Virus record (IMG/VR): IMGVR_UViG_3300024951_000016
Span: 1-38,766 of that record
From: a virus
Direction: 5' to 3' (one strand)
Length of the DNA: 38,766 nucleotides
In this document: piece after piece, positions 18,559 to 37,906 of the stretch
Numbering within the stretch: the stretch's first letter is position 1
How the letters are laid out: every line of letters starts with the position of its first letter
Translations under genes and position numbers: made by a program
Notes under the pieces: model-generated
The model's input: only the letters and a program-made list of their open reading frames with translations
Databases searched by the model: none
Told to the model about the DNA's origin: nothing

Positions 18559-20133
18559 ATGCTCATCATTGAACCCACACCCATCCCTGACGGCCCTCCG
18601 GTTCCCAACTCGAACGACCCCGAGGTCACCTTCGACGAACAGTACGAGGCCTCCATTGCCTGGCAGCGCAACGATGCGGTACCTGGTATGAATTCGCTGG
18701 CCCAGGCCTCCTACGCCAACGCGGTCTCTGCACGCGATAGCGCCGTCGCTGCGGCGGATTCCGAGGCTTCGGCGGCGGCCATGTCCAACTTCCGTGGCTA
18801 CTGGGCCGACCAGGCGGGCGCGCTGGCCCGCCCGGCCAGCGTGAAACACTCCGGTGGCCTGTGGATGCTGCTCAATGACCTGGCCGACGTGACGTCCAGC
18901 CAGCCGGGCGTATCTGCTGACTGGGAGGCGCTGACGGGCTACTTCTCCACGGGGGACATCATTTCCACCGTGCGACCCATGGCGCCGCCCTGGCTGCCGA
19001 CGAACGGGGCGCTGTACCTGATCGGCGCTTACCCCCACCTGGCAGCGCTGCAGCCAACCCCGTTCACCGACCCGATGACGAAGATCGGCAACCCGGCCAC
19101 GCTGCCCGCCAGCGATGGCTGGGGCGGAGCGTTCAGCCCCGACGGCGTGTATCTCGCCGTAGCGCACTCGCTCACGCCCTTCATTTCGATCTACAAACGC
19201 ACGGGAGACACGTTCACCAAACTAGCCAACCCGGCCGAGCTGCCGACCGGGCAGGCGCTGGCTTGTGTCTTCAGCAACGATGGCACCTACCTGGCAGTGG
19301 CCCACAACACGGCGCCGAGCATCACCATCTACAAGCGCGCGGGCGACGCGTTCACGAAGCTTGCCAACCCTGCGGACTTGCCGCCGGGCACGGGGGCGGA
19401 TGGGTGCGCGTTCAGCACCGATGGCACCTACCTTGCTGTCGCGCACAGCCTCACGCCGTTTCTCACGATCTACAAGCGCGCGGGCGATGTCTTCACGAAG
19501 CTGGCCAATCCTGCTGCATTGCCTGCGGGGGGAGGCAGCAAGTGCGCGTTCAGCGCAGATGGCACCTACCTCGCAGTGGCGCACATAACAACGCCATTCA
19601 TCACGATCTACAAGCGCGCGGGCGATGTCTTCACCAAACTGGCCAATCCAGCGGCGCTGCCCACGGGCAACGGCGCGGGCGCTGCGTTCAGCCCCGATGG
19701 CAACTACCTTGCGGTGGCCCATACCACCACGCCGTTTTTGACCATCTACAAGCGCACCGACGACACGTTCACCAAACTAGCCAACCCGGCGGCGCTGCCC
19801 ACAGGCAACGCCCGCCGGGTGGCGTTCAGCCCGGATGGGCTGTACCTCGCAGTAGCGCACGCCACCACGCCCTTCATTACGGTCTACAAGCGCGCCGGCG
19901 ATGTGTTCACCAAGCTGACAGACCCCACGGGATTGCCCGCCAGCGACGCGCGCGACGCCTCGTTCTGGTTCGGCGCCAACAACATGGAGCACTTCCTTGT
20001 CGTGCCCCATGCCACGACGCCCTATGTCGCGCTCTACCGCGACGGCTACCCGTTCGATCCTTCCGTGGAATTCGCTGTGCCGAACTACACCGGCCTGGGC
20101 GGGGACCGCGCATCCACCTACATCAGGAGCTGA
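18559..20133 (+). CDS. Seven-bladed beta-propeller tail protein, candidate receptor-binding protein
   Basis: 524 aa. Residues 1-172 include an N-terminal part likely to attach to the tail (Asp/Pro-rich start, then a helical AVSARDSAVAAADSEASAAA segment). From residue 173 there are seven tandem repeats of 46-47 residues, beginning near 173, 220, 266, 313, 359, 405 and 451. The consensus is TKLANPAALP ... AFSPDGTYLAVAHTTTPF ... IYKRAGDVF. The sixth and earlier units are close copies; the seventh is degraded and closes the ring. The FSPDGTYLAVAH core is characteristic of propeller blades. Seven units fit a closed beta-propeller. By position and architecture it is probably the tail adhesin; receptor binding itself is inferred. 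Confidence 0.75.
   Translation: MLIIEPTPIPDGPPVPNSNDPEVTFDEQYEASIAWQRNDAVPGMNSLAQASYANAVSARDSAVAAADSEASAAAMSNFRGYWADQAGALARPASVKHSGGLWMLLNDLADVTSSQPGVSADWEALTGYFSTGDIISTVRPMAPPWLPTNGALYLIGAYPHLAALQPTPFTDPMTKIGNPATLPASDGWGGAFSPDGVYLAVAHSLTPFISIYKRTGDTFTKLANPAELPTGQALACVFSNDGTYLAVAHNTAPSITIYKRAGDAFTKLANPADLPPGTGADGCAFSTDGTYLAVAHSLTPFLTIYKRAGDVFTKLANPAALPAGGGSKCAFSADGTYLAVAHITTPFITIYKRAGDVFTKLANPAALPTGNGAGAAFSPDGNYLAVAHTTTPFLTIYKRTDDTFTKLANPAALPTGNARRVAFSPDGLYLAVAHATTPFITVYKRAGDVFTKLTDPTGLPASDARDASFWFGANNMEHFLVVPHATTPYVALYRDGYPFDPSVEFAVPNYTGLGGDRASTYIRS
19075..20055 (+). repeat. Seven tandem coding repeats of about 138 bp (propeller blades)
   Basis: Each unit is 138-141 bp and encodes one propeller blade. 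Units begin near 19075, 19216, 19354, 19495, 19633, 19771 and 19909. The middle copies are highly alike at DNA level (for example TTCACGAAGCT and ATCTACAAGCGCGCGGGCGA recur), which suggests recent duplication or gene conversion and offers a route for blade number or sequence to change by recombination. Confidence 0.85.
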
Positions 20134-20689: not shown

Positions 20690-21162
20690 GGGCCGCGTTC
20701 TACAAGGCCACCCGCCCCGGCTGGCAGGGCCTCTACAGCCGGGCGGCCCGCGCCGTGGACCGTGGGCCCTACAGCCACTGCGAGCTGGTGTTCAGCGACG
20801 GCATGAGCGGCAGCGCAAGCTTCATCGACGGCGGCGTGCGGCTCAAGCGCATCGACTACGACCCCGAGCACTGGGACTTCATCGAGCTTCCGGCCCGCCT
20901 GGAGGCCCAGGCCCGCGCCTGGTTCGAGCTGCACAAGGGCCAGCCCTACGACCTCCCGGGAAACCTGCGGTTCGTCTGGTGGATGGTGCGCGATGCACCG
21001 CAGGGCTGGTTTTGCAGCGAGGCCGCCGCCGCCGCTCTGGGCCTGCGCGAGCCGTGGCGCCTGGGGCCGAACGGCCTGGCGGCGCTGCTGCTGAGCATCT
21101 ACCCACAACAACAAGAGCAGGGAGGGGCCGCATGCCCGAGCCAACGTCTACATCCGGCCTGA
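20686..21162 (+). CDS. Papain-like (NlpC/P60 or YiiX-type) peptidase
   Basis: 158 aa. It resembles permuted NlpC/P60 (YiiX/YebB-like) hydrolases: a histidine in GPYSHCELVF and, after about 80 residues, a probable nucleophile cysteine in GWFCSEAAAAAL, with acidic residues between. Such enzymes cut peptide bonds of peptidoglycan or other amide bonds. Position between tail and holin genes suggests a tail-associated or lysis-linked wall hydrolase. The C-terminal part (GGAACPSQ) overlaps the start of the next gene, so the last 10 residues are encoded together with the beginning of 21132. Confidence 0.7.
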   Translation: MRAAFYKATRPGWQGLYSRAARAVDRGPYSHCELVFSDGMSGSASFIDGGVRLKRIDYDPEHWDFIELPARLEAQARAWFELHKGQPYDLPGNLRFVWWMVRDAPQGWFCSEAAAAALGLREPWRLGPNGLAALLLSIYPQQQEQGGAACPSQRLHPA

Positions 21163-21533: not shown

Positions 21534-21844
21534 ACGCACTACTGATTGCGCACGAGCTGGCCTGCGCCGCTCTGTTCTTCTCGGTCTTCTGCCGCATGCT
21601 CAAAACCAGCCACCGCACCCGCGTGCTGGTGCGCCTGGCGTTCTGGGTGCTGGGCATCGTGGCCATGGCGGGCATGGCCTGGCCCATCCTGGGCTGGCCG
21701 CTGCCGTGGTTCGGCGTGGCGCTGTGCCTGGCCATCGTGCTGGTGCAAGGCGTAACCGCCTTCTACTGGTCCCGGGGCGTGCCCCGGCAATTCATCAAAG
21801 GAGGTGCTGCGTATGGACAGCCTGACCACCAACATTCTGCGTGA
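21530..21844 (+). CDS. Second small membrane protein, holin/antiholin candidate
   Basis: 104 aa. It has a hydrophobic N-terminus (LLIAHELACAALFFSVF) and two strong segments (LAFWVLGIVAMAGMAWPIL and WFGVALCLAIVLVQGVTAFYW). It is coupled to the first membrane protein and its last 32 bases overlap the endolysin gene, whose AAAGGAGG is encoded within it (residues FIKGGAA). Two adjacent small membrane proteins next to an endolysin often form a holin and antiholin pair. Which is which cannot be told from sequence. Confidence 0.6.
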   Translation: MNALLIAHELACAALFFSVFCRMLKTSHRTRVLVRLAFWVLGIVAMAGMAWPILGWPLPWFGVALCLAIVLVQGVTAFYWSRGVPRQFIKGGAAYGQPDHQHSA

Positions 21845-26572: not shown

Positions 26573-26949
26573 GCTGGGGAAGCGATTTTTTGAACAAGGC
26601 CGGGACTTCGCCGCAGGGCGTGGTGCTGGCCCTGGTGTGGGCTGGCTTGGTGTGCGCCAGTACCGCGTGGGATTCAGAGCACGCCGCAACAGAAAAAAAC
26701 CTCATGGAGTTCACGAATGCAAAAGCGATATTTGACCGAGTTAGAGCAGTCTCGGCTGCTCAGTGGGGCCTTGGCAGTCAACTGCTCGCTGGCCCAGCGC
26801 GACCACCACTGGATGGCCGTGCTGATCCTCACGGGCATGCGCATCCAGGAGTTCTCGCGCCTTACCGTGCCGATGGTTCAGCAGGCGCTGCAAACGGGCT
26901 GGCTGGTCACCCCGAAATCGTTCTGCAAGGGCGGCCGGCGCGGCCATGA
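26569..26949 (+). CDS. Doubtful ORF overlapping the recombinase
   Basis: 126 aa if complete. The first 50 residues, with a hydrophobic stretch (GVVLALVWAGLVCAS), are plausible as a small membrane protein starting at an ATGA overlap. The second half runs over the recombinase gene in another frame and is Pro/Gly/Ala-rich like a shadow. A run of seven A (26693-26699) forms an in-frame slippery A AAA AAC; a -1 shift would stop after about 11 codons. Probably only the N-terminal part, if any, is meaningful. Confidence 0.25.
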   Translation: MSWGSDFLNKAGTSPQGVVLALVWAGLVCASTAWDSEHAATEKNLMEFTNAKAIFDRVRAVSAAQWGLGSQLLAGPARPPLDGRADPHGHAHPGVLAPYRADGSAGAANGLAGHPEIVLQGRPARP

Positions 26950-27391: not shown

Positions 27392-27654
27392 ACGCCCCCT
27401 CCCACTGGCAAATCCACGGCACCGCTGAGCTGCTTCCCCGCAGCAAGCGCGAATCCCCCGGCACGCTGTCCGTGCACACCCAGCAGCACCCCTCCATCGC
27501 CGGGGGGAAGGTGCATGTGGTGCAAGAAATCAGCATGGGCCCGTTCACCCTGGCCGCGCGCATGGACAGCAAGGCAGTGCGGGCGCTGTGCGTGAAGATG
27601 CTGGCCGCCGCCGAGGTGGCCGACGCGCTGGCCCGCAAGGAAGGGGGCGCGTGA
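27388..27654 (+). CDS. Hypothetical early protein
   Basis: 88 aa, not recognised. ATG 27388 overlaps the recombinase stop (ATGA) and AAGGAG lies upstream. Middle part QQHPSIAGGKVHVVQEISMG is beta-like; the end is helical (AVRALCVKMLAAAEVADALARKEGGA). The C-terminus KEGGA-stop is an incomplete form of the GGAA tail seen at repeated junctions further on. Confidence 0.6.
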   Translation: MNAPSHWQIHGTAELLPRSKRESPGTLSVHTQQHPSIAGGKVHVVQEISMGPFTLAARMDSKAVRALCVKMLAAAEVADALARKEGGA

Positions 27655-27806
27655 TGGTGTTCACGGTCACCCACATCAGCCCCGCCGGGGCCATGCACCG
27701 CCGCGACGTGCGGGCCGCCAGCAACGAGCTGGCCATGGCCTGGATGGAGCAGCTCTACGGCCAGGCCCGCACCATCGCCGCCATCCTGAAAGGCGGTGCC
27801 GCATGA
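27654..27806 (+). CDS. Small hypothetical protein ending GGAA
   Basis: 50 aa, not recognised (MVFTVTHISPAGAMHRRDVR, then ASNELAMAWMEQLYGQAR). It overlaps the previous stop. Its last four codons and stop are the first copy of the repeated junction element, so it ends LKGGAA and couples directly to the P-loop gene. Confidence 0.55.
   Translation: MVFTVTHISPAGAMHRRDVRAASNELAMAWMEQLYGQARTIAAILKGGAA
27789..27806 (+). repeat. Junction element copy 1
   Basis: AAAGGCGGTGCCGCATGA: ribosome site, upstream C-terminus (GGAA-stop) and downstream ATG in one. The 17-bp core is at 27790-27806. Confidence 0.85.
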
Positions 27807-28090
27807 AGATCGTTCGTATCCATGGCTCATGTGGCGCAGGGAAGACCACCGTCCTCAACTATGCCGCCCGTGTCTTGGCGGTGCAGGACGGGCGCGCTGT
27901 TCGTGAGCTGACGGGCCTTCGCTATGCCGCTGTAGCGAAGCTTTTGCAAGAGAACCACAACGCGAATACGTGTTTCGTCATCGACGAGCCGGACCGCGTT
28001 GTCTGGGAGTTGCTGGAGCGTTCGACGAATCACCCTGCCCATCTGCTTGTGGCCTTCGCCGCCGAAGCGTCGGAAGGCGGTGCCGCATGA
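27803..28090 (+). CDS. Mini P-loop NTPase
   Basis: 95 aa. A Walker A motif, GSCGAGKTT (residues 8-16), directly follows the first strand, and a Walker B-like CFVIDEPD (57-64, D61/E62) follows at the usual order but short distance. This is a minimal P-loop fold, much smaller than typical kinases or ATPases; later elements (sensor or lid) appear to be missing. It might bind a nucleotide or act as part of a larger complex. It ends in SEGGAA at a junction element and begins at another. Confidence 0.65.
   Translation: MKIVRIHGSCGAGKTTVLNYAARVLAVQDGRAVRELTGLRYAAVAKLLQENHNANTCFVIDEPDRVVWELLERSTNHPAHLLVAFAAEASEGGAA
28074..28090 (+). repeat. Junction element copy 2
   Basis: AAGGCGGTGCCGCATGA, exact copy. 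Preceded by GG, as in copy 3, so 19 bases are shared with it. Confidence 0.85.
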
Positions 28091-28269
28091 AATACATCGC
28101 ATGCCGCGCCGCTTGGCTGACGCTCGACGCCGTGTACCGCTTGGCCGCCCGGTTCGCCGCGCTGCTGGCCCGGGCGGCCGATGCGGCGCAGATCGAAATG
28201 CTGATCGCCCTGGCGGACCAGCGCATCAAGGCGCAGCAGCGCCAGGCCGCAGGGGAGGGCGACGCATGA
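28087..28269 (+). CDS. Small helical hypothetical protein
   Basis: 60 aa, Ala-rich amphipathic helix throughout (LDAVYRLAARFAALLARAAD, then EMLIALADQRIKAQQRQAA). It might associate with a membrane or form a coil, but no family is known to me. It starts at junction copy 2. Its own end (GEGDA-stop, overlapping ATG 28266) is only partly like the junction element. Confidence 0.55.
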   Translation: MKYIACRAAWLTLDAVYRLAARFAALLARAADAAQIEMLIALADQRIKAQQRQAAGEGDA

Positions 28270-28478
28270 GCCGGCAAGCCTTTATCACCCTGGCGGCCGA
28301 GCGGATCGAGCCCGGCCCCCTTCGCTGGGTGGGTGACGTGCTGCAGCAGGAAACCCGCCTGTTCCTGAACGGCCAGTGCGTGTGCGTGCTGCTGGTGTCG
28401 TTCCCCCCTGGCAGCCCCGAGTGGACGAAAGGCCAGCGCCTGCGCGCCCTCGACGGCATGGGGGCCGTGCCGGCATGA
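28266..28478 (+). CDS. Small hypothetical protein
   Basis: 70 aa, not recognised. Coupled by ATGA on both sides. Beta-like: LRWVGDVLQQETRLFLNGQC, VCVLLVSFPPGSPEW. No membrane segment. Confidence 0.55.
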   Translation: MSRQAFITLAAERIEPGPLRWVGDVLQQETRLFLNGQCVCVLLVSFPPGSPEWTKGQRLRALDGMGAVPA

Positions 28479-28909
28479 CGGCCGACCTCCGTTCCCAGGT
28501 GCTGCAGGTGCTGGCCGAGGCCGGCACCTGGGTGGACCGCCCCGCGCTGGCCCACCTGACCACCTGCGTGCCCGCGCTGGATGACGTGCTGGCCGACCTG
28601 GTGGTGGACGGGCGCGTGGAGCACCAGCGCTTCGTGGGCTACCGGCTGGCGGTGTCTGCGCTGGCGCGCGCCGCGCTATTGAAACTGCAGCGCGAACCGC
28701 AGTTACGGCGGGCCGTAGCGGCCAAAACCATAGAAAAAAACGGGCAGTCCCAGGTGCTGATGGGCGTGGCGCAGCGGTGCGCGGACGCCGCCGGCGGCGT
28801 GGTGACCTTCGACATGGCCCTGCCTGTCTGCACCACGCCCCAGGCGGCGCTGGCGCAGGCCCAGGCATGGCTGGCGTTCTGTGCAAAGGGAGGGCTACTC
28901 AATGGCTGA
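28475..28909 (+). CDS. Winged-helix-like early protein
   Basis: 144 aa. Residues about 5-55 look like a winged helix-turn-helix: LRSQVLQVLAEAGTWVDRPA, LAHLTTCVPALDDVLADLV, then a wing VDGRVEHQRFVGYRLA. A basic linker and an Ala-rich C-terminal part follow. DNA binding, perhaps in replication or transcription control, is the likeliest role. At codons 87-89 (GAA AAA AAC) an A7 run forms an in-frame slippery heptamer (28735-28741). Confidence 0.55.
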   Translation: MTADLRSQVLQVLAEAGTWVDRPALAHLTTCVPALDDVLADLVVDGRVEHQRFVGYRLAVSALARAALLKLQREPQLRRAVAAKTIEKNGQSQVLMGVAQRCADAAGGVVTFDMALPVCTTPQAALAQAQAWLAFCAKGGLLNG

Positions 28910-29201
28910 CGCGAATTACTGGAAGGCGCGCTGCCGGCGCGCCGAGGGGCTTCTGGCGAAAGCGCGCCAGGGCCTGCGGGTGACCAGCCAGCGCGCGGCG
29001 GTGCTGCAGGCGCTGGGCGAGCTCAAGCCCGGCGAGTGGCTGGGCACCGACCGCCTGGCGCGCATGGCCGGGGTGAAGTGGTCGCACCTGGCCGAAATGG
29101 AGGCGCTTGGCCTGGTGGTAAGCCGCCCAGTGCAGGGCGCCAACAAGTCGGAATGGCAGCTGGAGCACCTGGTGCTGGTGCCGGAAGGCGGTGCCGCATG
29201 A
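28902..29201 (+). CDS. Small winged-helix-like protein ending GGAA
   Basis: 99 aa. N-terminal WKARCRRAEGLLAKARQGLR is basic and helical; VTSQRAAVLQALGELKPGEW then LGTDRLARMAGVKWSHLAEM read as a helix-turn-helix with a following wing (LGLVVSRPVQGANKSEWQLEHL). It overlaps the previous gene by 8 bases and ends PEGGAA at junction copy 3. Two wing-HTH genes in tandem suggest related duplicates, although identity is low. Confidence 0.6.
   Translation: MADANYWKARCRRAEGLLAKARQGLRVTSQRAAVLQALGELKPGEWLGTDRLARMAGVKWSHLAEMEALGLVVSRPVQGANKSEWQLEHLVLVPEGGAA
29185..29201 (+). repeat. Junction element copy 3
   Basis: AAGGCGGTGCCGCATGA, exact copy, preceded by GG as in copy 2. Confidence 0.85.
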
Positions 29202-29656
29202 GCGTGGTGACCGTTACCTACCGCCGCCAGCCCGCACCGCTGCCTAAGTTCTGGCGCCCCAAGCTGCAGGCCCCCACCCGCGACTTGTGCCGAACCATCC
29301 ACTGGGACCTGATCTCCCGCTTCACCGCCGGCACCGCCGACCGAGAAGTGCTGTGGGACTGGATGGAAACGGGCCTGACCTACCACCAGCTCATGCGCTA
29401 CCTGGAGATGGACGGCACGCCGTTCACCCTGGAGGCCATGGCGGCGGTGACCGAGCAGCTCGGCATCTACGAGGCCGTTGCCGCCCGCTTCGCCCGCACG
29501 GGCCGCGTGGGGTTCAGCGCGCCGGAGCTGCTGGTGGCACGCGCGGCCGCGCAGGTGTTTGACAGCCTGCTCGACCTGGACCGCCACGGCCTGGCCGAGA
29601 AGGCCGCGCTGTGGAGCAACGGCGTGATGGCTAAGGCGCGGGCGGGCAAGAAATGA
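29198..29656 (+). CDS. Hypothetical early protein
   Basis: 152 aa, not recognised. A basic N-terminus (YRRQPAPLPKFWRPKLQAP) precedes a helical body with TADREVLWDWMETGLTYHQL, MRYLEMDGTPFTLEAMAAVT. It lacks membrane segments. It starts at junction copy 3 and its stop overlaps the following ATG. A regulator or DNA-associated role is conceivable but unsupported. Confidence 0.6.
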   Translation: MSVVTVTYRRQPAPLPKFWRPKLQAPTRDLCRTIHWDLISRFTAGTADREVLWDWMETGLTYHQLMRYLEMDGTPFTLEAMAAVTEQLGIYEAVAARFARTGRVGFSAPELLVARAAAQVFDSLLDLDRHGLAEKAALWSNGVMAKARAGKK

Positions 29657-29925
29657 ACGGCCTGCCCTACATCGAAATTTCTGCCGCCTTCTTTGGCGTG
29701 CTGGGCACCTTGCTGCTGGCCGGGCGCTCGCGCGCTGCGGGCTGGGGCTTCGTCGCCTACCTGGCCAGCAATGTCGGCTGGCTTGCCTTTGCGTGGGAGC
29801 GCGCCCTGTGGGCGCTGTTCCTGCAGCAATTCGTGTTCACCCTGTGCAGCGTGTACGGGGTGTGGATGTGGATCGTTCGACCCGCGTGGCATGGCCGCGT
29901 GGGCGGTGGACTGAACAAGGAGTGA
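29653..29925 (+). CDS. Small three-helix membrane protein
   Basis: 90 aa with three membrane segments: about 8-23 (ISAAFFGVLGTLLLAG), 30-46 (WGFVAYLASNVGWLAFA) and 52-74 (LWALFLQQFVFTLCSVYGVWMW). The pattern of three helices with a SN-xx-W in helix 2 and YG-x-W in helix 3 recalls SemiSWEET or PnuC-like half transporters often found in phages; that is a resemblance only. Confidence 0.6.
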   Translation: MNGLPYIEISAAFFGVLGTLLLAGRSRAAGWGFVAYLASNVGWLAFAWERALWALFLQQFVFTLCSVYGVWMWIVRPAWHGRVGGGLNKE

Positions 29926-29928
29926 GCG

Positions 29929-30234
29929 ATGGGAGTTCAAGTAACTGGAAATGTGCAGCTGTCTTGCGACGGTTCCGCGAGTGACATCGGCGTTGACGGC
30001 GCGGCCGTGCTGCTCGCGCCGCTGGTGAATGGCTGCCGAGAACGCATGCCCCGCCAGGAGATGGTCCCCTTGTGCCGCGGCCTCCTGTCGGGTGTGCTGG
30101 CGCACTTCTCCGAGGAGCTGTCCCGCGAGGAGCTGCTGGATCTGCTGGAGCGTGCAAAGGACATGGTGGGCGCCTGCGACGCGTTCAAGCCTGCGAAGGA
30201 CTTGCTTGCGCGCCCAGGAAAGGCGGCGCACTGA
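29929..30234 (+). CDS. Hypothetical early protein
   Basis: 101 aa, not recognised. Acidic helical middle (ELSREELLDLLERAKDMV) after VPLCRGLLSGVLAHFSE. GGAGTGAGCG just upstream serves as ribosome site. No domain seen. Confidence 0.55.
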   Translation: MGVQVTGNVQLSCDGSASDIGVDGAAVLLAPLVNGCRERMPRQEMVPLCRGLLSGVLAHFSEELSREELLDLLERAKDMVGACDAFKPAKDLLARPGKAAH

Positions 30235-30833
30235 TGGCCGACAAGAGACAGGCGGCTGGAGGCTGCATGACGAGCCTCGCACACGTTCAAGCCAAGCTGG
30301 TATCGGCCCAGCATTGCCACCCAAATGCAGTGCAGGCGCTTATCGGTGAAGCGCTGGCAGCTATCGATGTGATAGCGACCGCCAAGGAGGATGGAGCACC
30401 ACTCCTGCCGCCCTACAAAGTCCGCGTCATGGACCCGACCGGCCAGTGGAGCCCGTGGGTACCTCTTGGCGGTGGGCTCAGACACTCGCAAGTTGAGGTT
30501 GGTTTGTCAGAGTTAGATCCACTGGCGGCGCCTGCGCTCAGCGAACAGGATGCCGGGTTGCTGGAACAAGGCGCGTCCATGCTGGAGGCCCTGGCGAACG
30601 ACGAGCGCAATCGCGGCAACGATTCAGCCGCAATGGGGGCCGAGTGCAGTGCTCATGCCGTGCGCAGGCTCGCCGTCGAGCTGCTGAATGCGGCGCGGTA
30701 CCGCTTTCTCGCGCGCTCCATGGGCGTCATTTGCATCGCCAGGGCCGACGAGAACACTGGCGGAGTCCTGAAAGCCGGGGCCGCAGATGCTGCCATCGAC
30801 GCCGCCATGGTTGCGAAAGGCGGTGCCGCATGA
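30234..30833 (+). CDS. Hypothetical early protein ending GGAA
   Basis: 199 aa, not recognised. After a basic start, residues about 60-85 (LPPYKVRVMDPTGQWSPWVP) are beta-like; a helical C-terminal part follows (LEQGASMLEALANDERNRGN, AVRRLAVELLNAARYRFLAR). ATG 30234 abuts the previous stop; a second ATG at 30267 (MTSLAHVQAK) is an equally good start. It ends AKGGAA at junction copy 4, so it is coupled to the cytosine methyltransferase. Confidence 0.55.
   Translation: MADKRQAAGGCMTSLAHVQAKLVSAQHCHPNAVQALIGEALAAIDVIATAKEDGAPLLPPYKVRVMDPTGQWSPWVPLGGGLRHSQVEVGLSELDPLAAPALSEQDAGLLEQGASMLEALANDERNRGNDSAAMGAECSAHAVRRLAVELLNAARYRFLARSMGVICIARADENTGGVLKAGAADAAIDAAMVAKGGAA
30817..30833 (+). repeat. Junction element copy 4
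   Basis: AAGGCGGTGCCGCATGA, exact copy; its extension GCGAAAGGCGGTGC is also found at copy 5. Confidence 0.85.
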
Positions 30834-32701
30834 AGCCCCAGGACGTCACGAGCTTCTTCCTCTTCGGCGGCTCCGGCGCGGGCGCTGCGGGCTTCAAGGA
30901 TGCGGACCCCTCCATAGGCACCATCCGGGGCCGCATGGTGGTGCTGGGCGGAATCGACGTGGACCGGCGGGCCTGCACCGACTTCAAGATGCTCACGGGT
31001 GTGCCGCAGGCCTGCGTGGATCTGTTCAGCCTGCAGCAGTACCTGGCCTGGTACGGCCACATGCCGCCCGAGGGCTGGCGCGAGGCCTCTGCCGACACGG
31101 TGCGCTCTGCGGCGCAGTGGCTGTGCCCCGACATCGTGTTCCTGTCGGCGCCGTGCAAGGGCTTCTCGGGCTTGCTGCCGGCCGCCCACGCCTCGACGGT
31201 GAAATACCAGGCGCTGAACGAGCTGACGCTGCGCGGCGTGTGGATGATGCTGGAGGCCTTCGCAGACGACTTGCCGGGCCTGATCGTGTTCGAGAACGTG
31301 CCGCGCATCGCCACACGGGGGCGGCACCTGCTGGACCAGATCATCGGCATGCTGCAGCACTACGGCTACGCCACGGCCGAGACCACGCACGACTGCGGCG
31401 AGCTGGGCGACGGCCTGGGCCAGAGCCGCCGCCGCTTCCTGCTGGTGGCGCGCCTTGTGCGCAAGGTGCCGCCGTTCCTGTACGAGCCGCCCAAGCGCGC
31501 CCTGCGCAGCGTGGGCGAGGTGCTGGGCCACATGCCCTTGCCGGGCGACCCGCTGGGCGGCCCCATGCACCGCATGCCCGCCCTGCAGTGGAAGACCTGG
31601 GTGCGCCTGGCCTTCGTGGAGGCGGGCAGCGACTGGCGCAGCCTGAACCGCCTGGCCGTGGAGGATGGGAACCTGCGGGACTACCTGATCGTTCCCGACA
31701 TGCACGGCGGCGTGCTGGGCGTAAACCGCTGGGATGAACCCACCGGCGTGGTGGCCGGGGCATCCCGCCCGGCCAACGGCTCGTTTTCCGTGGCTGACCC
31801 GCGCTTCATCCAGTCCGCCAAGTGGAAGGATGGCCAGGCCCTGGGCGTGCGCCGCTGGGGCGAGTCCACGGGCACGGTGGCGGGCCAAACCGGGCCGCTG
31901 CAGGGCGCCTACAGCGTGGCCGACCCGCGCCACGGCGGCCCGGCGAAGCACTCGAACGAGTTCCGCATCGTGGCGTGGGACAACGCGGCGCGCGCGGTGA
32001 CCAGCGCGCACGGCTCCGGCCAGGCCGTGGCCGACCCGCGCCAGGAGGGCTTGCCGTTCGCCAAGTACAGCGTGACGCCCTTCCACGAGGCCTGCGGCAC
32101 CGTGATTGCAGGCAGCACCACGGGCCAGGGCGCTTTTGCTGTGGCGGACCCGCGTCCCAACATGCAGCGCGGCAAGGGCGACCACTACCTGACCGGCGGG
32201 CACTACGGCGTGGTGCGCCACACCGACCCGGCCGGGGCCGTGAGCGCTTCGGCGTGCCACGACAACGGGAACTGGAGCGTGGCCGACCCGCGCCCCGCTT
32301 CCGGTTTTGCCCCCGTGATCGTGGCGCCCGCCATGCCCGCAGCCAACGACAAGCTGGTGGCGCGCATCCAGTCGCTCGACGGCACTTGGCACCGCCCGTT
32401 CACCACGCTGGAGCTGGCCGCGCTGCAGAGCTTTATCGACCCCGAGGAGTATTTCGCCGCCGGCGGCCCGGCCGAGCAGGGCGAACGCTTCGTGCTTGAC
32501 GGCACGAACGACCAGCGCTGGCGCGAGGCCATCGGCAACGCCGTGCCGCGCAAGTCGGCCAAGGCCATCGGCACGGTGATGGGCCAGACCATCCTGCTGG
32601 CCAGGAACGGCGAGACCTTCGTGCTGGGCAGCACGCCCATCTGGGTGCGGCCCATGGTGGCCGCGCTGGCGGTGGCGCGGGAAGGGGGTGCCCATGCTTG
32701 A
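30830..32701 (+). CDS. C5-cytosine DNA methyltransferase with repeated target domain
   Basis: 623 aa. It transfers a methyl group from SAM to cytosine C5 in a specific site. Motif I is SFFLFGGSGAGAAGF (8-22, variant of FxGxGG); motif IV is SAPCKGFSG with Cys109 as nucleophile; motif VI is FENVPRI (E155 N156 V157); motif VIII is GLGQSRRRFLL (Q198, R200, R202); motif X is GNAVPRKSAKAIG (569-581). The variable region between VIII and X is unusually long (about 330 aa). It contains five repeats of roughly 37-46 residues, each ending VADPR (321, 363, 400, 438, 484). It may shield phage DNA from host restriction; specificity cannot be read from sequence. No partner restriction enzyme is present. 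Confidence 0.88.
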   Translation: MKPQDVTSFFLFGGSGAGAAGFKDADPSIGTIRGRMVVLGGIDVDRRACTDFKMLTGVPQACVDLFSLQQYLAWYGHMPPEGWREASADTVRSAAQWLCPDIVFLSAPCKGFSGLLPAAHASTVKYQALNELTLRGVWMMLEAFADDLPGLIVFENVPRIATRGRHLLDQIIGMLQHYGYATAETTHDCGELGDGLGQSRRRFLLVARLVRKVPPFLYEPPKRALRSVGEVLGHMPLPGDPLGGPMHRMPALQWKTWVRLAFVEAGSDWRSLNRLAVEDGNLRDYLIVPDMHGGVLGVNRWDEPTGVVAGASRPANGSFSVADPRFIQSAKWKDGQALGVRRWGESTGTVAGQTGPLQGAYSVADPRHGGPAKHSNEFRIVAWDNAARAVTSAHGSGQAVADPRQEGLPFAKYSVTPFHEACGTVIAGSTTGQGAFAVADPRPNMQRGKGDHYLTGGHYGVVRHTDPAGAVSASACHDNGNWSVADPRPASGFAPVIVAPAMPAANDKLVARIQSLDGTWHRPFTTLELAALQSFIDPEEYFAAGGPAEQGERFVLDGTNDQRWREAIGNAVPRKSAKAIGTVMGQTILLARNGETFVLGSTPIWVRPMVAALAVAREGGAHA

Positions 32702-32891
32702 GCCGACCACCGTCACTGTCAGTGCCGACGCACTTTCCCGGGTGCTGGTGGCCCTGATCGGCCCGCCGCACCGCATCCGAGAGCTGCAGGCCACACGCAG
32801 CCTGCACAAGCTGGGGTTCCCGAACCCCATCGACATCCTGATAGAGCAATACAACGCAGCCGCCGCGCTGCAGGAGAACCCCCATGGCTGA
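32694..32891 (+). CDS. Small hypothetical protein
   Basis: 65 aa, not recognised. It overlaps the methyltransferase end by 8 bases, at a degenerate copy of the junction element (AAGGGGGTGCCCATG, 32682-32696), the upstream protein ending REGGAHA. Sequence: VSADALSRVLVALIGPPHRI then RELQATRSLHKLGFPNPID, helical. Confidence 0.55.
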   Translation: MLEPTTVTVSADALSRVLVALIGPPHRIRELQATRSLHKLGFPNPIDILIEQYNAAAALQENPHG

Positions 32892-33138
32892 AACCGTCCT
32901 CAACGCCTTCCAGTCCGTCCGCCCCCGTGGCGTGAACCGCCCTAGCGCCATCCCGGCGAAGAAGGGCGCCGGCAAGCCGATGACCATCGGGAACCCGCGT
33001 GTGCGGGTGCTCGACTCCACCGGCCAGCTCCGCTCCTCCCTGGCCCCGCGCCCGCACAGCGGCTTCCTGATCGAGGGCCGCGAGCAGGCCCAGGCCAGCC
33101 AGGACAAGCGCCGCAAGCTGGTGAAAGGGGGCCTGTGA
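32884..33138 (+). CDS. Small basic hypothetical protein
   Basis: 84 aa, not recognised. Basic (VRPRGVNRPSAIPAKKGAGK), with beta-like RVRVLDSTG and a charged C-terminus (QASQDKRRKLVKGGL). It overlaps the previous gene by 8 bases. Confidence 0.5.
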   Translation: MAETVLNAFQSVRPRGVNRPSAIPAKKGAGKPMTIGNPRVRVLDSTGQLRSSLAPRPHSGFLIEGREQAQASQDKRRKLVKGGL

Positions 33139-33422
33139 TGGCCGCGCCCGTTTGCCAAACCCAGGCCGAGGCCAACGCCTTCTGGGCCGACAAGGAGCTC
33201 AAAAAGTGGGTGGTGACCTTCACCGCCGGCGCGCGCGGCCGGCGCCGCACGGGCGAATCCTTCGTGGGCGCGGCCACGTCGGCCGGCGCCCGGCGCGCCG
33301 GCATCGCCGACATGGAGCAGCGCGGCCACGACTGGGCCCGCTGCGCCGCCGCCACGGTGCGGCTGGCGACGGCGCAGGATCTGGGGTGCGTGCACGTGGG
33401 TGCGAAAGGCGGTGCGGCATGA
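33138..33422 (+). CDS. Small hypothetical protein ending GGAA
   Basis: 94 aa, not recognised. N-terminal helix (QAEANAFWADKELKKWVVTF) then an Arg/Gly/Ala-rich segment (GARGRRRTGESFVGAATSAG) and helical C-terminus with DWARCAAATVRLATAQ. It may bind nucleic acid, judging only from charge. It ends AKGGAA at junction copy 5. Confidence 0.55.
   Translation: MAAPVCQTQAEANAFWADKELKKWVVTFTAGARGRRRTGESFVGAATSAGARRAGIADMEQRGHDWARCAAATVRLATAQDLGCVHVGAKGGAA
33406..33422 (+). repeat. Junction element copy 5 (one base changed)
   Basis: AAGGCGGTGCGGCATGA; the change (GCC to GCG) keeps alanine, so the protein still ends GGAA. Confidence 0.8.
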
Positions 33423-34030
33423 AGGAGCGCCCGATTCTGTATGCCGGCGCCATGGTCCGCGCGCTGCGGGCAGACCTGAAGACCATGACCCGGCGCCTTG
33501 TAAATGGGGCCGCTCTCGACTGGCTCGACCGGGAGGGATTCACGCCGGAATTCGTTGCGTTGCCGGAGAACGGCATGTGCCCCTACGGCCAACCGGGTGA
33601 CCGGCTTTGGGTGCGAGAAAGGGGGTGGGAACGGCCACCTCGCACGCGGAAGATGATGTGCGATGGTGCGGACACCTGGGAGCGCTTCTACTACGACGCC
33701 GACGGTCTGAGCCCTACCGAGACCGAGGATTTGAAGACCTGGGGCTTCAAGCGCCGACCGAGTATCCACATGCCCAGATGGGCCAGCCGCATTTCGCTGG
33801 AGATCACGTCCGTGCGCATCCAGCGCCTGCAGAGCATCAGCGAAGAGGACGCGCTCGCCGAGGGTACGCCCGGCGGCCACGGTTCGATTCCTGGCTATGG
33901 CTACAACGCCATGCCCGGCGAGCATTTCATGTGGCTTTGGCAGCAGCTGTACGGATCCGGTTCGTGGGCCGCCAACCCCTGGGTGTGGGTGCTGGAGTTC
34001 CGGCGCCTGCAGGAAGGCGGTGCCGCATGA
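33419..34030 (+). CDS. ASCH-like phage protein
   Basis: 203 aa. It matches a common phage family of ASCH (PUA-like) proteins: KERPILYAGAMVRALRADLKTMTRR, split here as RPILYAGAMVRALRA and DLKTMTRRL; PGDRLWVRERG; and RRPSIHMPRWASRISLE with EITSVRIQRLQSISEEDAL. ASCH domains are thought to bind RNA or modified nucleotides. The middle FYYDADG region and the C-terminal FMWLWQQLYG and NPWVWVLEFRRL complete the typical layout. It ends QEGGAA at junction copy 6 and begins at copy 5. Confidence 0.75.
   Translation: MKERPILYAGAMVRALRADLKTMTRRLVNGAALDWLDREGFTPEFVALPENGMCPYGQPGDRLWVRERGWERPPRTRKMMCDGADTWERFYYDADGLSPTETEDLKTWGFKRRPSIHMPRWASRISLEITSVRIQRLQSISEEDALAEGTPGGHGSIPGYGYNAMPGEHFMWLWQQLYGSGSWAANPWVWVLEFRRLQEGGAA
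34014..34030 (+). repeat. Junction element copy 6
   Basis: AAGGCGGTGCCGCATGA, exact copy; preceded by GG as in copies 2 and 3. Confidence 0.85.
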
Positions 34031-34284
34031 GACCCACCCAGCACCCCACCAACAACGACGTGCTGGGCGCACCGCCTGGCGTGGCGATCGAGGATTGCAA
34101 GCCGCTGGCGATCACCCGCGTGATGTATGAGCGCGGCGGGCCTGCCCTGTGGTCGTTCTGGGAGCCGAGCCCGGAGGAGCGCGCTGCCATTGCTGCCGGC
34201 GCGCTGGTGCGGTTTTCCTGCTGGGGCAGGACGCACCCGCCCGTGGCCATTGGCGTGGACGGCGTGGAGGAACGCCCATGGTGA
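34027..34284 (+). CDS. Small hypothetical protein
   Basis: 85 aa, not recognised. It starts at junction copy 6. Middle: PLAITRVMYERGGPALWSFW, then PSPEERAAIAAGALVRFSCW, ending GVEERPW. No membrane segment or known motif. Confidence 0.5.
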   Translation: MRPTQHPTNNDVLGAPPGVAIEDCKPLAITRVMYERGGPALWSFWEPSPEERAAIAAGALVRFSCWGRTHPPVAIGVDGVEERPW

Positions 34285-35026: not shown

Positions 35027-37906
35027 ATGAGCAACAACGGATCAACATCAGCGCAGGGCGGCCAGCGGCCCGACCTTGCAGCCAAGCTGAACGCGGAAAT
35101 CTGCTGCGAAGACCTGGCCGAGAGGCTGGGCCTGGAGCGGCCGGGGGGCAAGACCAGCAACTTCCGCAGCCCCCACCACAAGGACAAGGCGCCGAGCGTG
35201 TCGGTGTATGTGCCCGAGAAGGCCCCGACAGGGAGCAACAAGCGCTGGAAGGACTGGAGCACGGGCGAGGCTGGCGGCCCGGTGGACATGGTGATGTGGG
35301 CGCGGGGGCTGGACTTTCCGGAGGCGGTGAAGGAGCTGTCCGGGCTGTACCCGTCCATCCGCGTGCCGGCGCCGGCGCCGTCCGCCGCTGCCCTGGGCCC
35401 GCGCCCGCAGCCCACGCTGGCGGAGTGGATTGCCGAGAGGTGCATCGCCGCGGCCAAGACCGACCAGAAGGAGGAGCTGCTGAACTACCTGTGCGGCCAT
35501 GAGGACGGCCAGCGGCACCTGGCGCTGCCGGTGGTGGAGGCGGCCATCAAGCGCGGCACGGTGGGGCTGAACACCTGGACCAAGCCGGGCGCCACGCCGG
35601 GCGAGCAGGGCTACGGCGGGCCGGCGGCGGCGTTCATCGTGCGTTCGCGCCTCGACGGCCGGGTGCTGGGCGTGGACATGCGTTTCATCGACGCCGACCT
35701 GAACGGCGGCCAGAAGACCACCAGCCAGGGCGACAAGGTGGGCGCGCCGTGGACGGCGGACTGGCGCAAGCTGATGGCGGCGCGCACGGTGGTGGTGGTG
35801 GAGAGCGCCATCAACGCGCTGAGCGTGGATTCGGCCCAGGTGCCGGGCGTGGCCGCGCTGGCGGTGCGGGGCACGCAGACGATCGAGGGCGGGGACTGGT
35901 CATTCCTGCGGGGTAAGCAGGTGATCCTGGCCTTTGACAACGACCACAAGCCGCAGGAGCAGGGCGAGAACAAGGGCTTTTGCCCGGGCCCGCTGGCGGC
36001 CTGGCGCATGCACGAGATCCTGACGGGGCTGGACGTGGCCTGCCTGCTGGTGGACCAGGAGGGCTGGAAGCACAACGACGAGCCGGTGAACGACCTGAAC
36101 GACCTGCTGCAGGTGCGCAAGGCGGACGGCCTGGGCCTGGCCCTGAAGGTGCTGGAGGAGTGCGCCATTCCGGGCCTGCCGACCAAGACCTACCGCCCGG
36201 GCAAGCAACGCATTTGGCTGCCTACGCACGACTTCCACGCCTACAGCAAGTACCGCGTGGCGCCGGACTTCACCCGGGCGGTGAAGGCGGTGGAGCGCGA
36301 CAGCGAGACGGGCGAGGAGAAGGTGTCGTATGCCGACATTTGCGGCTTCCGGGTGGCGGCGGTGAGCCGGGTGCAGATTGCCTCGCCCACGTCGACCATG
36401 ACGGGCGACCCGGACAATGCGCCGCGCACGGTGTTTGCGCTCTCGGTGCAGGTGGCGCGCCACGGCCCGGTGCTGCAGCGCCGCGTGGTGGACGATGAGA
36501 AGCTGCACAACCAGGACGTGTGGAAGAAGCTGGGCCCCATCTACGCCCCCACGGCCTTTGCCCGCCTGGTCAACGTGTGGGAGCGGGCGTCGCACATCGG
36601 CGCGCGGGAGGCCATCAACTTCGTGGGCCTGGCCTGGCGTGACGGGCGCCCGGTGGTGAACGAGGGGCCGGACTGCTTCTTTACCGACGCGCGCCAGCAG
36701 TGCCCGTACAGCGACCTGGTGTTTCCCAGCGGCACCATGGACGATGCACGGGCGGTGCTGGCCCAGTTCCAGGGCACGTTCCGCGACAACGCGGCCATGA
36801 TCCCGCTGGTGTGGGGCCTGGGGGCGCACCTCAAGGCCTTCCTGGGGTTCTGGCCGCATTTCGTGATGCAGGCCGAGAAGGGCACCGGCAAGAGCACGCT
36901 GGTGAAGCGCCTGGAGCGCGCCATTGCCATGGTGATGAGCAGCCGCCAGAGCCTGCAGACCGAGTTCCGCCAGCTCACCAGCGTGAGCTACACCAGCCAC
37001 CCGGTGGGCTGGGGCGAGATGAGCGCGAACAAGCAGGACATCATCAACAAGGCGGTGCACAACCTGCAGGAGTGCTACCAGTACGAGCACACCCGGCGCG
37101 GCGCCGACCTGATCGACTACCTGCTGTGCGCGCCCGTGCTGCTGGCCGGCGAGGACGTGCCGGTGCAGAGCCTGCAGGGCAAGGTGGTGCGCAGCGAGCT
37201 GACCAAGGTTCGCCGCGGCCCAGAAATGCCCCAGGACTTGCCCGTGTTCCCGGTGAAGCAGTGGCTGCTGTTCCTGACCCGCAAGGACAAGGCGCGGGTG
37301 CGCAAGCTGCACGAGGACATGGTGGAACGCCTGTCGGCGAGCTGCGTGGCCAGCACGGCCGACGCCGGCGCCGAGCGCATGGTGAACAACTACGCCGCCC
37401 TGGCCGCCGCCTGGCACTTACTGTGCGAGTTTGCCGACCTGCACGAGGACACGGGCGACTTCCTGGGCGACCTGACCGCCGAGATGAACGCCCACATCGG
37501 CGAGAGCGTGAGCGACCGCCAGCCCTGGGCCTGGATCACCGAGAAGCTGCTGAGCGAGATCGCGCAGCACACCTTCCGCTACCCCTACGAGTTCGACTCC
37601 ATCGACGACGTGCCCGTGCTGTGCGTGCGCACCTCCCACGTCATGAGCCACATGAGCACCACCGCCACGCTGCGCGAGTTCTGGGACGGCCTGCCGGTCA
37701 AGAGCGACCGCATCTACAAGAAGCAGTTGCAGGCGGCCGGCGTGCTGCTGGAGAAGGACGGCCACCCGCAGGCGGTGGAGCGCGTCATCAAGGGCACGCG
37801 CATGTCCAACATGGTGGCCATGAAGCTGGAGGCCCTGCGCCAGTACGGCCTGCACGCGGCCGTGCCGGTGAAGGAGACAGGCGACCCGGGAGCTGTGCCA
37901 TGGTGA
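35027..37906 (+). CDS. Primase/helicase-type replication protein
   Basis: 959 aa, the probable replication initiator of the phage. The N-terminal 100 residues resemble a CHC2-type primase zinc domain (FRSPHHKDKAPSVSVY, then WKDWSTGEAGGPVDMVMWA), but the expected cysteines are missing. A TOPRIM domain follows: VVVVESAINALSV (E259) and LAFDNDHKP (D304, D306). The C-terminal half holds a P-loop ATPase with Walker A EKGTGKSTL (K622) and nearby WGEMSANKQDIINKAVHN. Such primase-helicase fusions unwind DNA and prime synthesis. The ATG lacks a Shine-Dalgarno sequence, so initiation may be atypical or the true start slightly different. Its last bases overlap the adenine methylase start. Confidence 0.85.
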   Translation: MSNNGSTSAQGGQRPDLAAKLNAEICCEDLAERLGLERPGGKTSNFRSPHHKDKAPSVSVYVPEKAPTGSNKRWKDWSTGEAGGPVDMVMWARGLDFPEAVKELSGLYPSIRVPAPAPSAAALGPRPQPTLAEWIAERCIAAAKTDQKEELLNYLCGHEDGQRHLALPVVEAAIKRGTVGLNTWTKPGATPGEQGYGGPAAAFIVRSRLDGRVLGVDMRFIDADLNGGQKTTSQGDKVGAPWTADWRKLMAARTVVVVESAINALSVDSAQVPGVAALAVRGTQTIEGGDWSFLRGKQVILAFDNDHKPQEQGENKGFCPGPLAAWRMHEILTGLDVACLLVDQEGWKHNDEPVNDLNDLLQVRKADGLGLALKVLEECAIPGLPTKTYRPGKQRIWLPTHDFHAYSKYRVAPDFTRAVKAVERDSETGEEKVSYADICGFRVAAVSRVQIASPTSTMTGDPDNAPRTVFALSVQVARHGPVLQRRVVDDEKLHNQDVWKKLGPIYAPTAFARLVNVWERASHIGAREAINFVGLAWRDGRPVVNEGPDCFFTDARQQCPYSDLVFPSGTMDDARAVLAQFQGTFRDNAAMIPLVWGLGAHLKAFLGFWPHFVMQAEKGTGKSTLVKRLERAIAMVMSSRQSLQTEFRQLTSVSYTSHPVGWGEMSANKQDIINKAVHNLQECYQYEHTRRGADLIDYLLCAPVLLAGEDVPVQSLQGKVVRSELTKVRRGPEMPQDLPVFPVKQWLLFLTRKDKARVRKLHEDMVERLSASCVASTADAGAERMVNNYAALAAAWHLLCEFADLHEDTGDFLGDLTAEMNAHIGESVSDRQPWAWITEKLLSEIAQHTFRYPYEFDSIDDVPVLCVRTSHVMSHMSTTATLREFWDGLPVKSDRIYKKQLQAAGVLLEKDGHPQAVERVIKGTRMSNMVAMKLEALRQYGLHAAVPVKETGDPGAVPW

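Follow-up and report, generated by a model that had tools for sequence, protein, structure and literature searches.

A putative gene-joining linker repeated at the ends of accessory genes in a temperate phage genome

A 17-mer, AAGGCGGTGCCGCATGA, is present six times in the window (the whole stretch of DNA analyzed here: one strand, positions 1 to 38,766 of IMG/VR record IMGVR_UViG_3300024951_000016), with five exact copies and one carrying a single change. It is probably a gene-joining linker at the 3′ ends of accessory genes in a temperate phage family of beta-proteobacteria, acting as a portable joint between gene cassettes. Comparison with related genomes shows that single genes and blocks of genes are present, absent, or replaced, and that the breaks fall at the linker joints. 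Judged from their sequences, the copies most likely share descent, either by copying from each other or through a common pool of donors, because they resemble one another far more closely than would be expected had they evolved independently under the usual junction constraints.

Relatives were found among viral contigs through the primase gene (L246, L247, and L248, with 81, 80, and 65% identity); L530, reached through its linker, is a prophage in a genome of the Paracidovorax wautersii family. The relatives that reveal what the linker marks have primase identities of 79 to 89%. The six copies are as follows.

27790..27806, + strand: copy 1, exact; ends a 50-aa gene and starts the 95-aa cassette gene.
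28074..28090, + strand: copy 2, exact; ends the 95-aa cassette gene; L247 has an identical 18-mer at the same border behind an unrelated gene.
29185..29201, + strand: copy 3, exact; ends gene 28902-29201, with the tail EGGAA versus AAEKE in L246 and EGEA in L247.
30817..30833, + strand: copy 4, exact; at the start of the methyltransferase gene, where the same linker type is found in L530, L250, and L248.
33406..33422, + strand: copy 5, one synonymous change; bounds the 203-aa cassette gene on the left.
34014..34030, + strand: copy 6, exact; bounds the 203-aa cassette gene on the right; its ATG is where DNA homology with relatives begins.

The initial annotation had given these coordinates correctly, and two of its further claims hold for all six copies: each lies at a gene border with an overlapping stop and ATG, and each upstream protein is made to end in Gly-Gly-Ala-Ala. 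The copies are confined to the + strand and to the interval from 27.8 to 34.0 kb. Each is a −4 nt ATGA stop/start overlap that follows a ribosome-binding-like stretch, and the structural half of the window contains none. The residue before GGAA is Lys at 27806, 30833, and 33422 and Glu at 28090, 29201, and 34030; within each of these classes the string common to the copies extends to 18 to 20 nt. The change in copy 5 is C to G, converting codon GCC to GCG. The 9-base core AAGGCGGTG occurs eight times in the window, at the six linkers and at 36284 and 37049 inside the primase gene, where there is no accompanying stop/start. A second contig, L249, is identical to the window over their overlap and has all four linker copies in its range, so an assembly error is unlikely. 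The linker region lies between an integrase-like gene at 26717 and the primase gene at 35027 and, judging from the genes recognized in the window (terminase, head protease, tail protein, CII-like regulator, and primase), is the accessory part of a temperate phage.

In the relatives, the integrase-primase interval is a scaffold of small genes in a common order, with different genes set between them. Three sites of exchange (A, B, and C) and the methyltransferase gene involve the following features.

27803..28090, + strand: cassette A, a 95-aa P-loop-like protein; GC content 0.61 versus about 0.70 around it.
30217..30236, + strand: TGATG form of the linker, GGAAAGGCGGCGCACTGATG; marks the left edge of a three-gene insertion, and is a single joint in L246 and L530.
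30234..30833, + strand: cassette gene of 199 aa, between the TGATG form and copy 4.
30830..32701, + strand: C5 cytosine methyltransferase gene, 623 aa; flanked on either side by a linker in L250 and L530.
32682..32696, + strand: decayed linker at the end of the methyltransferase gene; of intact type in L250, L252, L273, and L530.
33138..33422, + strand: left neighbor of cassette B; AKGGAA end in the window and L246 alike.
33419..34030, + strand: cassette B, a 203-aa protein of PHROG 874 (unknown function), flanked by two linkers.
34027..34284, + strand: right neighbor of cassette B; protein 82% identical in L246.

At site A, the window has the 95-aa gene with a linker at either end, and L247 has an unrelated gene of similar size ending in the identical 18-mer; the site is empty in L246 and L530, where the empty joint is not the linker. 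A search of the viral collection for a relative of the 95-aa gene turned up no contig other than one identical to the window. At site B, L246 has homologues of both neighbors (59 and 82% identity) joined directly at one linker, GAAGGGCGGTGCAGCATGA. At site C, homologues of the genes at 29929 and 32884 are joined in L246 and L530 at GGAAAGGCGGTGC(C/A)CTGATG, in which the overlap is −1; an almost identical joint is present in the window, followed by the 199-aa, methyltransferase, and 65-aa genes and only then the homologue of 32884. A matching PHROG family was not found for the 199-aa gene (30234..30833). The TGATG form at 30217-30236, which had previously been missed, is a better variant than the degenerate forms that had been listed. 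Of these, there is good support for reading the one at 32682-32696 as a decayed copy, since the same methyltransferase gene ends in a near-consensus linker in four relatives; those at 27640-27656, 21797-21815, and 21121-21134 resemble ordinary ribosome sites.

The methyltransferase gene is found in four different upstream and several different downstream contexts. The linker is present at its start in the window, L530, L250, and L248, and at its end in L530, L250, L252, and L273, before different genes. The gene follows the homologue of 32884 in L530 and precedes it in the window. The earlier proposal that cassettes are shuffled at the element is supported by occupied, empty, and replaced sites among the relatives, and neither of the two outcomes that the initial annotation had named as refuting it was observed: the order of the flanking genes is not constant, the methyltransferase gene lying on either side of the 32884 homologue, and the 17-mer is not equally frequent elsewhere (see below). 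As in boundary sequences, the linker has different neighbors in different phages (sites A, B, and C, and the methyltransferase gene). When phage records were searched for distant DNA matches to the linker region and plasmid records for near ones, the hits fell mainly in the methyltransferase gene. Within that gene, at 31913-32297 of the window, there are repeated GTGGCCGACCCGCG stretches (VADPR motif).

Alignment around the joints also resembles that of boundary sequences, in that a short sequence is shared where homology starts or stops. At the right side of site B, comparison of the window with L246 in 12-base blocks gives 3/12 identities before the linker, 10/12 within it, and 10/12 after; at the methyltransferase end, L530 and L250 share 11, 12, 11, 9, and 11 of 12, then 6, 2, and 2 of 12 from the ATG on. 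The joint is far better conserved than the flanking coding DNA where genes have been exchanged. Proteins with conserved bodies carry alternative tails (ILKGGAA, IRIGGVA, or IRQGARP; VPEGGAA, MEGEA, or AAEKE; EFRRLQEGGAA versus EFKRVTS): the (E/K)GGAA tail is gained or lost while the rest of the protein is kept, and it is acquired by unrelated proteins. This bears on the idea that (E/K)GGAA is a working C-terminal signal, for example in proteolysis, with the DNA repeat simply following from it. Variation among the copies and relatives is mostly synonymous, as that idea would have it, but we regard it as very improbable, as homologues of the same proteins lack the tail, relatives also have GVA, GGVA, and GAP, and GGAA ends are found in the window only at ATGA-coupled joints.

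Could the same string have arisen repeatedly without copying? Chance and base composition as causes of the repeat are ruled out by dinucleotide shuffles: with up to three mismatches allowed the window still has six matches, and 100 shuffles give a mean of 0.30 and a maximum of three. A more serious alternative is convergence only, in which the ATGA overlap, the ribosome site, and the host preference for particular glycine and alanine codons yield nearly the same string at each joint. The string is indeed found at gene borders in phages and operons of unrelated hosts, its variable central base resembles glycine codon usage, and relatives have synonymous variants (AAA/AAG and GCC/GCG/GCA/GCT). 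However, models of the bases before ATGA overlaps, built from 483 background junctions with GC≥0.6 and with the 17-mer itself left out, give the exact 13 nt before ATGA a probability of 2e-6 (independent sites) to 4.9e-4 (third-order Markov, a model limited by data) per junction, whereas five of the 19 ATGA junctions in the window are identical. None of the 36 comparison loci fetched via the primase or methyltransferase gene has more than two identical junctions.

The spacer and the wider occurrence of the string also speak against convergence. At gene-border junctions in viral contigs, the fixed core GAAGGCGGTG is followed by CAGC in 28/86 cases and by CCGC in 2/86; CCGC is absent among the listed spacers of 43 junctions from loci with GC≥0.6, and all three CCGC cases are in loci with GC<0.6. 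Because CCGC is such a rare spacer, its sharing among the copies is itself unlikely by chance. The AAGGCGGTGCNGCATGA class has 39 matches in 301 genomes of the Paracidovorax wautersii family (comamonad), with at most two per genome and one match for the reversed control, in comparison to six in the window; by these counts and the shuffles, the string is not equally frequent elsewhere. With the spacer fixed (n = 104), the center base is C in 77, G in 12, A in nine, and T in six, and the central C looks to follow apparent glycine codon usage rather than ribosome-site strength. The initial annotation had held that coding constraint cannot explain the element, which is right for its repetition but probably not for the central C. 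Constraint could produce the string anywhere, but it does not account for six copies in 6.2 kb. Ribosome-site or codon constraint by itself is accordingly rejected on the junction models, the rare CCGC spacer, and the rarity of the class in the 301 genomes, and convergence only is, in our judgment, an unlikely account, given also that the joint is conserved beyond its flanks where genes were exchanged.

The linker is unremarkable as a ribosome site. Its computed duplex is −8.4/−8.5 versus −12.6 for AAGGAGGTG, the central C costing about 4 kcal/mol, and other ATGA junctions in the same phage range from −4.2 to −11.7, so the earlier description of a near-perfect ribosome site was overstated. Folding energies are likewise ordinary (mean −16.2 kcal/mol at linker junctions versus −16.0 kcal/mol at other ATGA junctions), and special translational strength or structure was rejected as an explanation; because its strength is ordinary, ribosome-site strength is not why the linker was copied. 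ATGA overlaps give termination-reinitiation coupling in the prokaryotes tested, in most cases with the aid of a Shine-Dalgarno motif inside the upstream gene (PMC6728339), and, as in such coupled chains, the linker places the TGA/ATG overlap and the ribosome site inside the upstream gene; translational coupling at the linker joints can thus be soundly inferred by analogy.

For the preferred reading of a linker spread by copying, a plausible scheme starts from the fact that a single stretch of 17 to 20 nt unites the last upstream codons (E/K-G-G-A-A), a ribosome site of ordinary strength, and the overlapping TGA/ATG. Ribosomes finishing the upstream gene would restart on the next. A linker-ended cassette could then be inserted, deleted, or swapped without harming expression of its neighbors, any such gene fitting before any other. 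Selection would retain recombinants joined at the linker, and a single linker sequence would have become numerous in this genome through repeated exchanges. The DNA would most likely be exchanged by rare short-homology or illegitimate recombination, or by recombination in longer flanking homology, with no dedicated enzyme implied.

In a different role, as has been proposed for lambdoid boundary sequences, the linker would be a short homology target that actively raises exchange, for example via a phage annealase; the initial annotation similarly suggested that the element promotes homologous recombination. Linkers and breaks do coincide at three sites and both methyltransferase ends, and where identical 17-mers share a downstream gene, the upstream genes differ in 41% at linkers versus 2% elsewhere, in a sample that was picked by the linker, such that the contrast is probably one of ascertainment. 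Without the condition of identical 17-mers, swap rates are alike: among 2,057 candidate ATGA junctions, which include chance open frames and come from loci fetched through the linker and are thus biased, neighbors are swapped in 57% and 51% with the core versus 46% and 50% without. Moreover, the linker identity of 17 to 20 bp is below the minimal pairing lengths of 31 to 34 bp for RecA and 23 to 27 bp for Red-beta (PMC3945230), and no annealase was recognized among the window proteins scanned, which are part of all of them. The suggestion is therefore unsupported, and we consider a recombination hot spot quite unlikely, more so than convergence.

Beyond the close relatives, the matches listed for the 17-mer include many unrelated phages and bacterial operons that have a single copy at a gene border, and constraint alone therefore makes it now and then. 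It is doubtful that [G]AAGGCGGTGCNGCATGA serves proteobacterial temperate phages of different hosts as a widespread signal for joining cassettes, spreading as a compatible end for exchange between unrelated phages. We note several other occurrences. The 17-mer is kept at one chromosomal operon joint, with frames of about 270 codons on both sides, in several Pseudomonas genomes (L138, L141, L153, L161, L169, L173, L180, L193, and others). AAGGCGGTGCAGCATGA (17 to 18 nt) is found at annotated gene borders in 31 phage records of several genera, including U32222/NC_001317 (coliphage 186), whereas its perfect ribosome-site version, GAAGGAGGTGCAGCATGA, matched six records. L335 (IMGVR_UViG_3300002847_000001) provides a second example of linker clustering; its three GAAGGCGGTG....ATGA joints all fall within about 500 bases, the spacer being CAGC in two and CCCC in one. 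The PHROG 874 proteins of the window (33419-34030) and of several enterobacterial prophages end in KR(I/V)EGGAA, with a joint of this type leading into several different downstream genes. The prophage loci (L297, L305, L308, L325, L328, L388, L398, L403, L477, and L487) were all reached by way of the linker; in a sample of enterobacterial genomes selected without regard to it, every PHROG 874 gene found lacks the tail.

No description of the linker sequence was found in the open-access papers searched, but there are several precedents for parts of the pattern. The lambdoid boundary sequences (HK620, Clark et al. 2001; P22, Susskind and Botstein 1978; both as cited in PMC3029335) are, like the linker, short sequences at module borders with different flanking genes in different phages; the window linker differs in being repeated six times in one genome and in lying inside the coding end of the upstream gene. 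The nin-region genes of lambda and P22 (Kroger and Hobom 1982; Cheng et al. 1995; cited in PMC8022706) are likewise packed accessory genes with TGA/ATG overlaps, although they involve other phages and other genes, and the cited description is of ATGA overlaps without a long identical linker. Gene 68 of mycobacteriophage Island3 (PMC3029335) follows the same logic as sites A and B, being an extra small gene, absent in a relative, whose 3′ end repeats that of the upstream gene, but with about 50 bp of similarity at one place rather than 17 to 20 bp at several. The SAS of cluster K mycobacteriophages (PMC3203893), a 13-bp repeated ribosome-site-like sequence, precedes many unrelated nonstructural genes, as does the linker. 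However, SAS sites have another consensus and are mostly before genes with more than 50 bp of intergenic space, whereas the six linkers are all at −4 nt overlaps; the SAS consensus GGGATAGGAGCCC has no matches with up to two mismatches, and membership in this group was rejected on both counts.

What sets the window apart from these precedents is that one coding-end linker is repeated within a single genome, and that occupied, empty, and replaced states are present in close relatives. It has long been asked how single genes come and go in mosaic phage genomes while the operons stay intact, and at most joints no trace of the events is left. With all three states found at one type of joint, a simple cross could address the question, and the linker is a natural part for adding genes to phage operons. 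Elsewhere in the window, gene 18559-20133, which encodes a virion-like protein, contains imperfect repeats with 138/276-nt spacing at 19129-19959.
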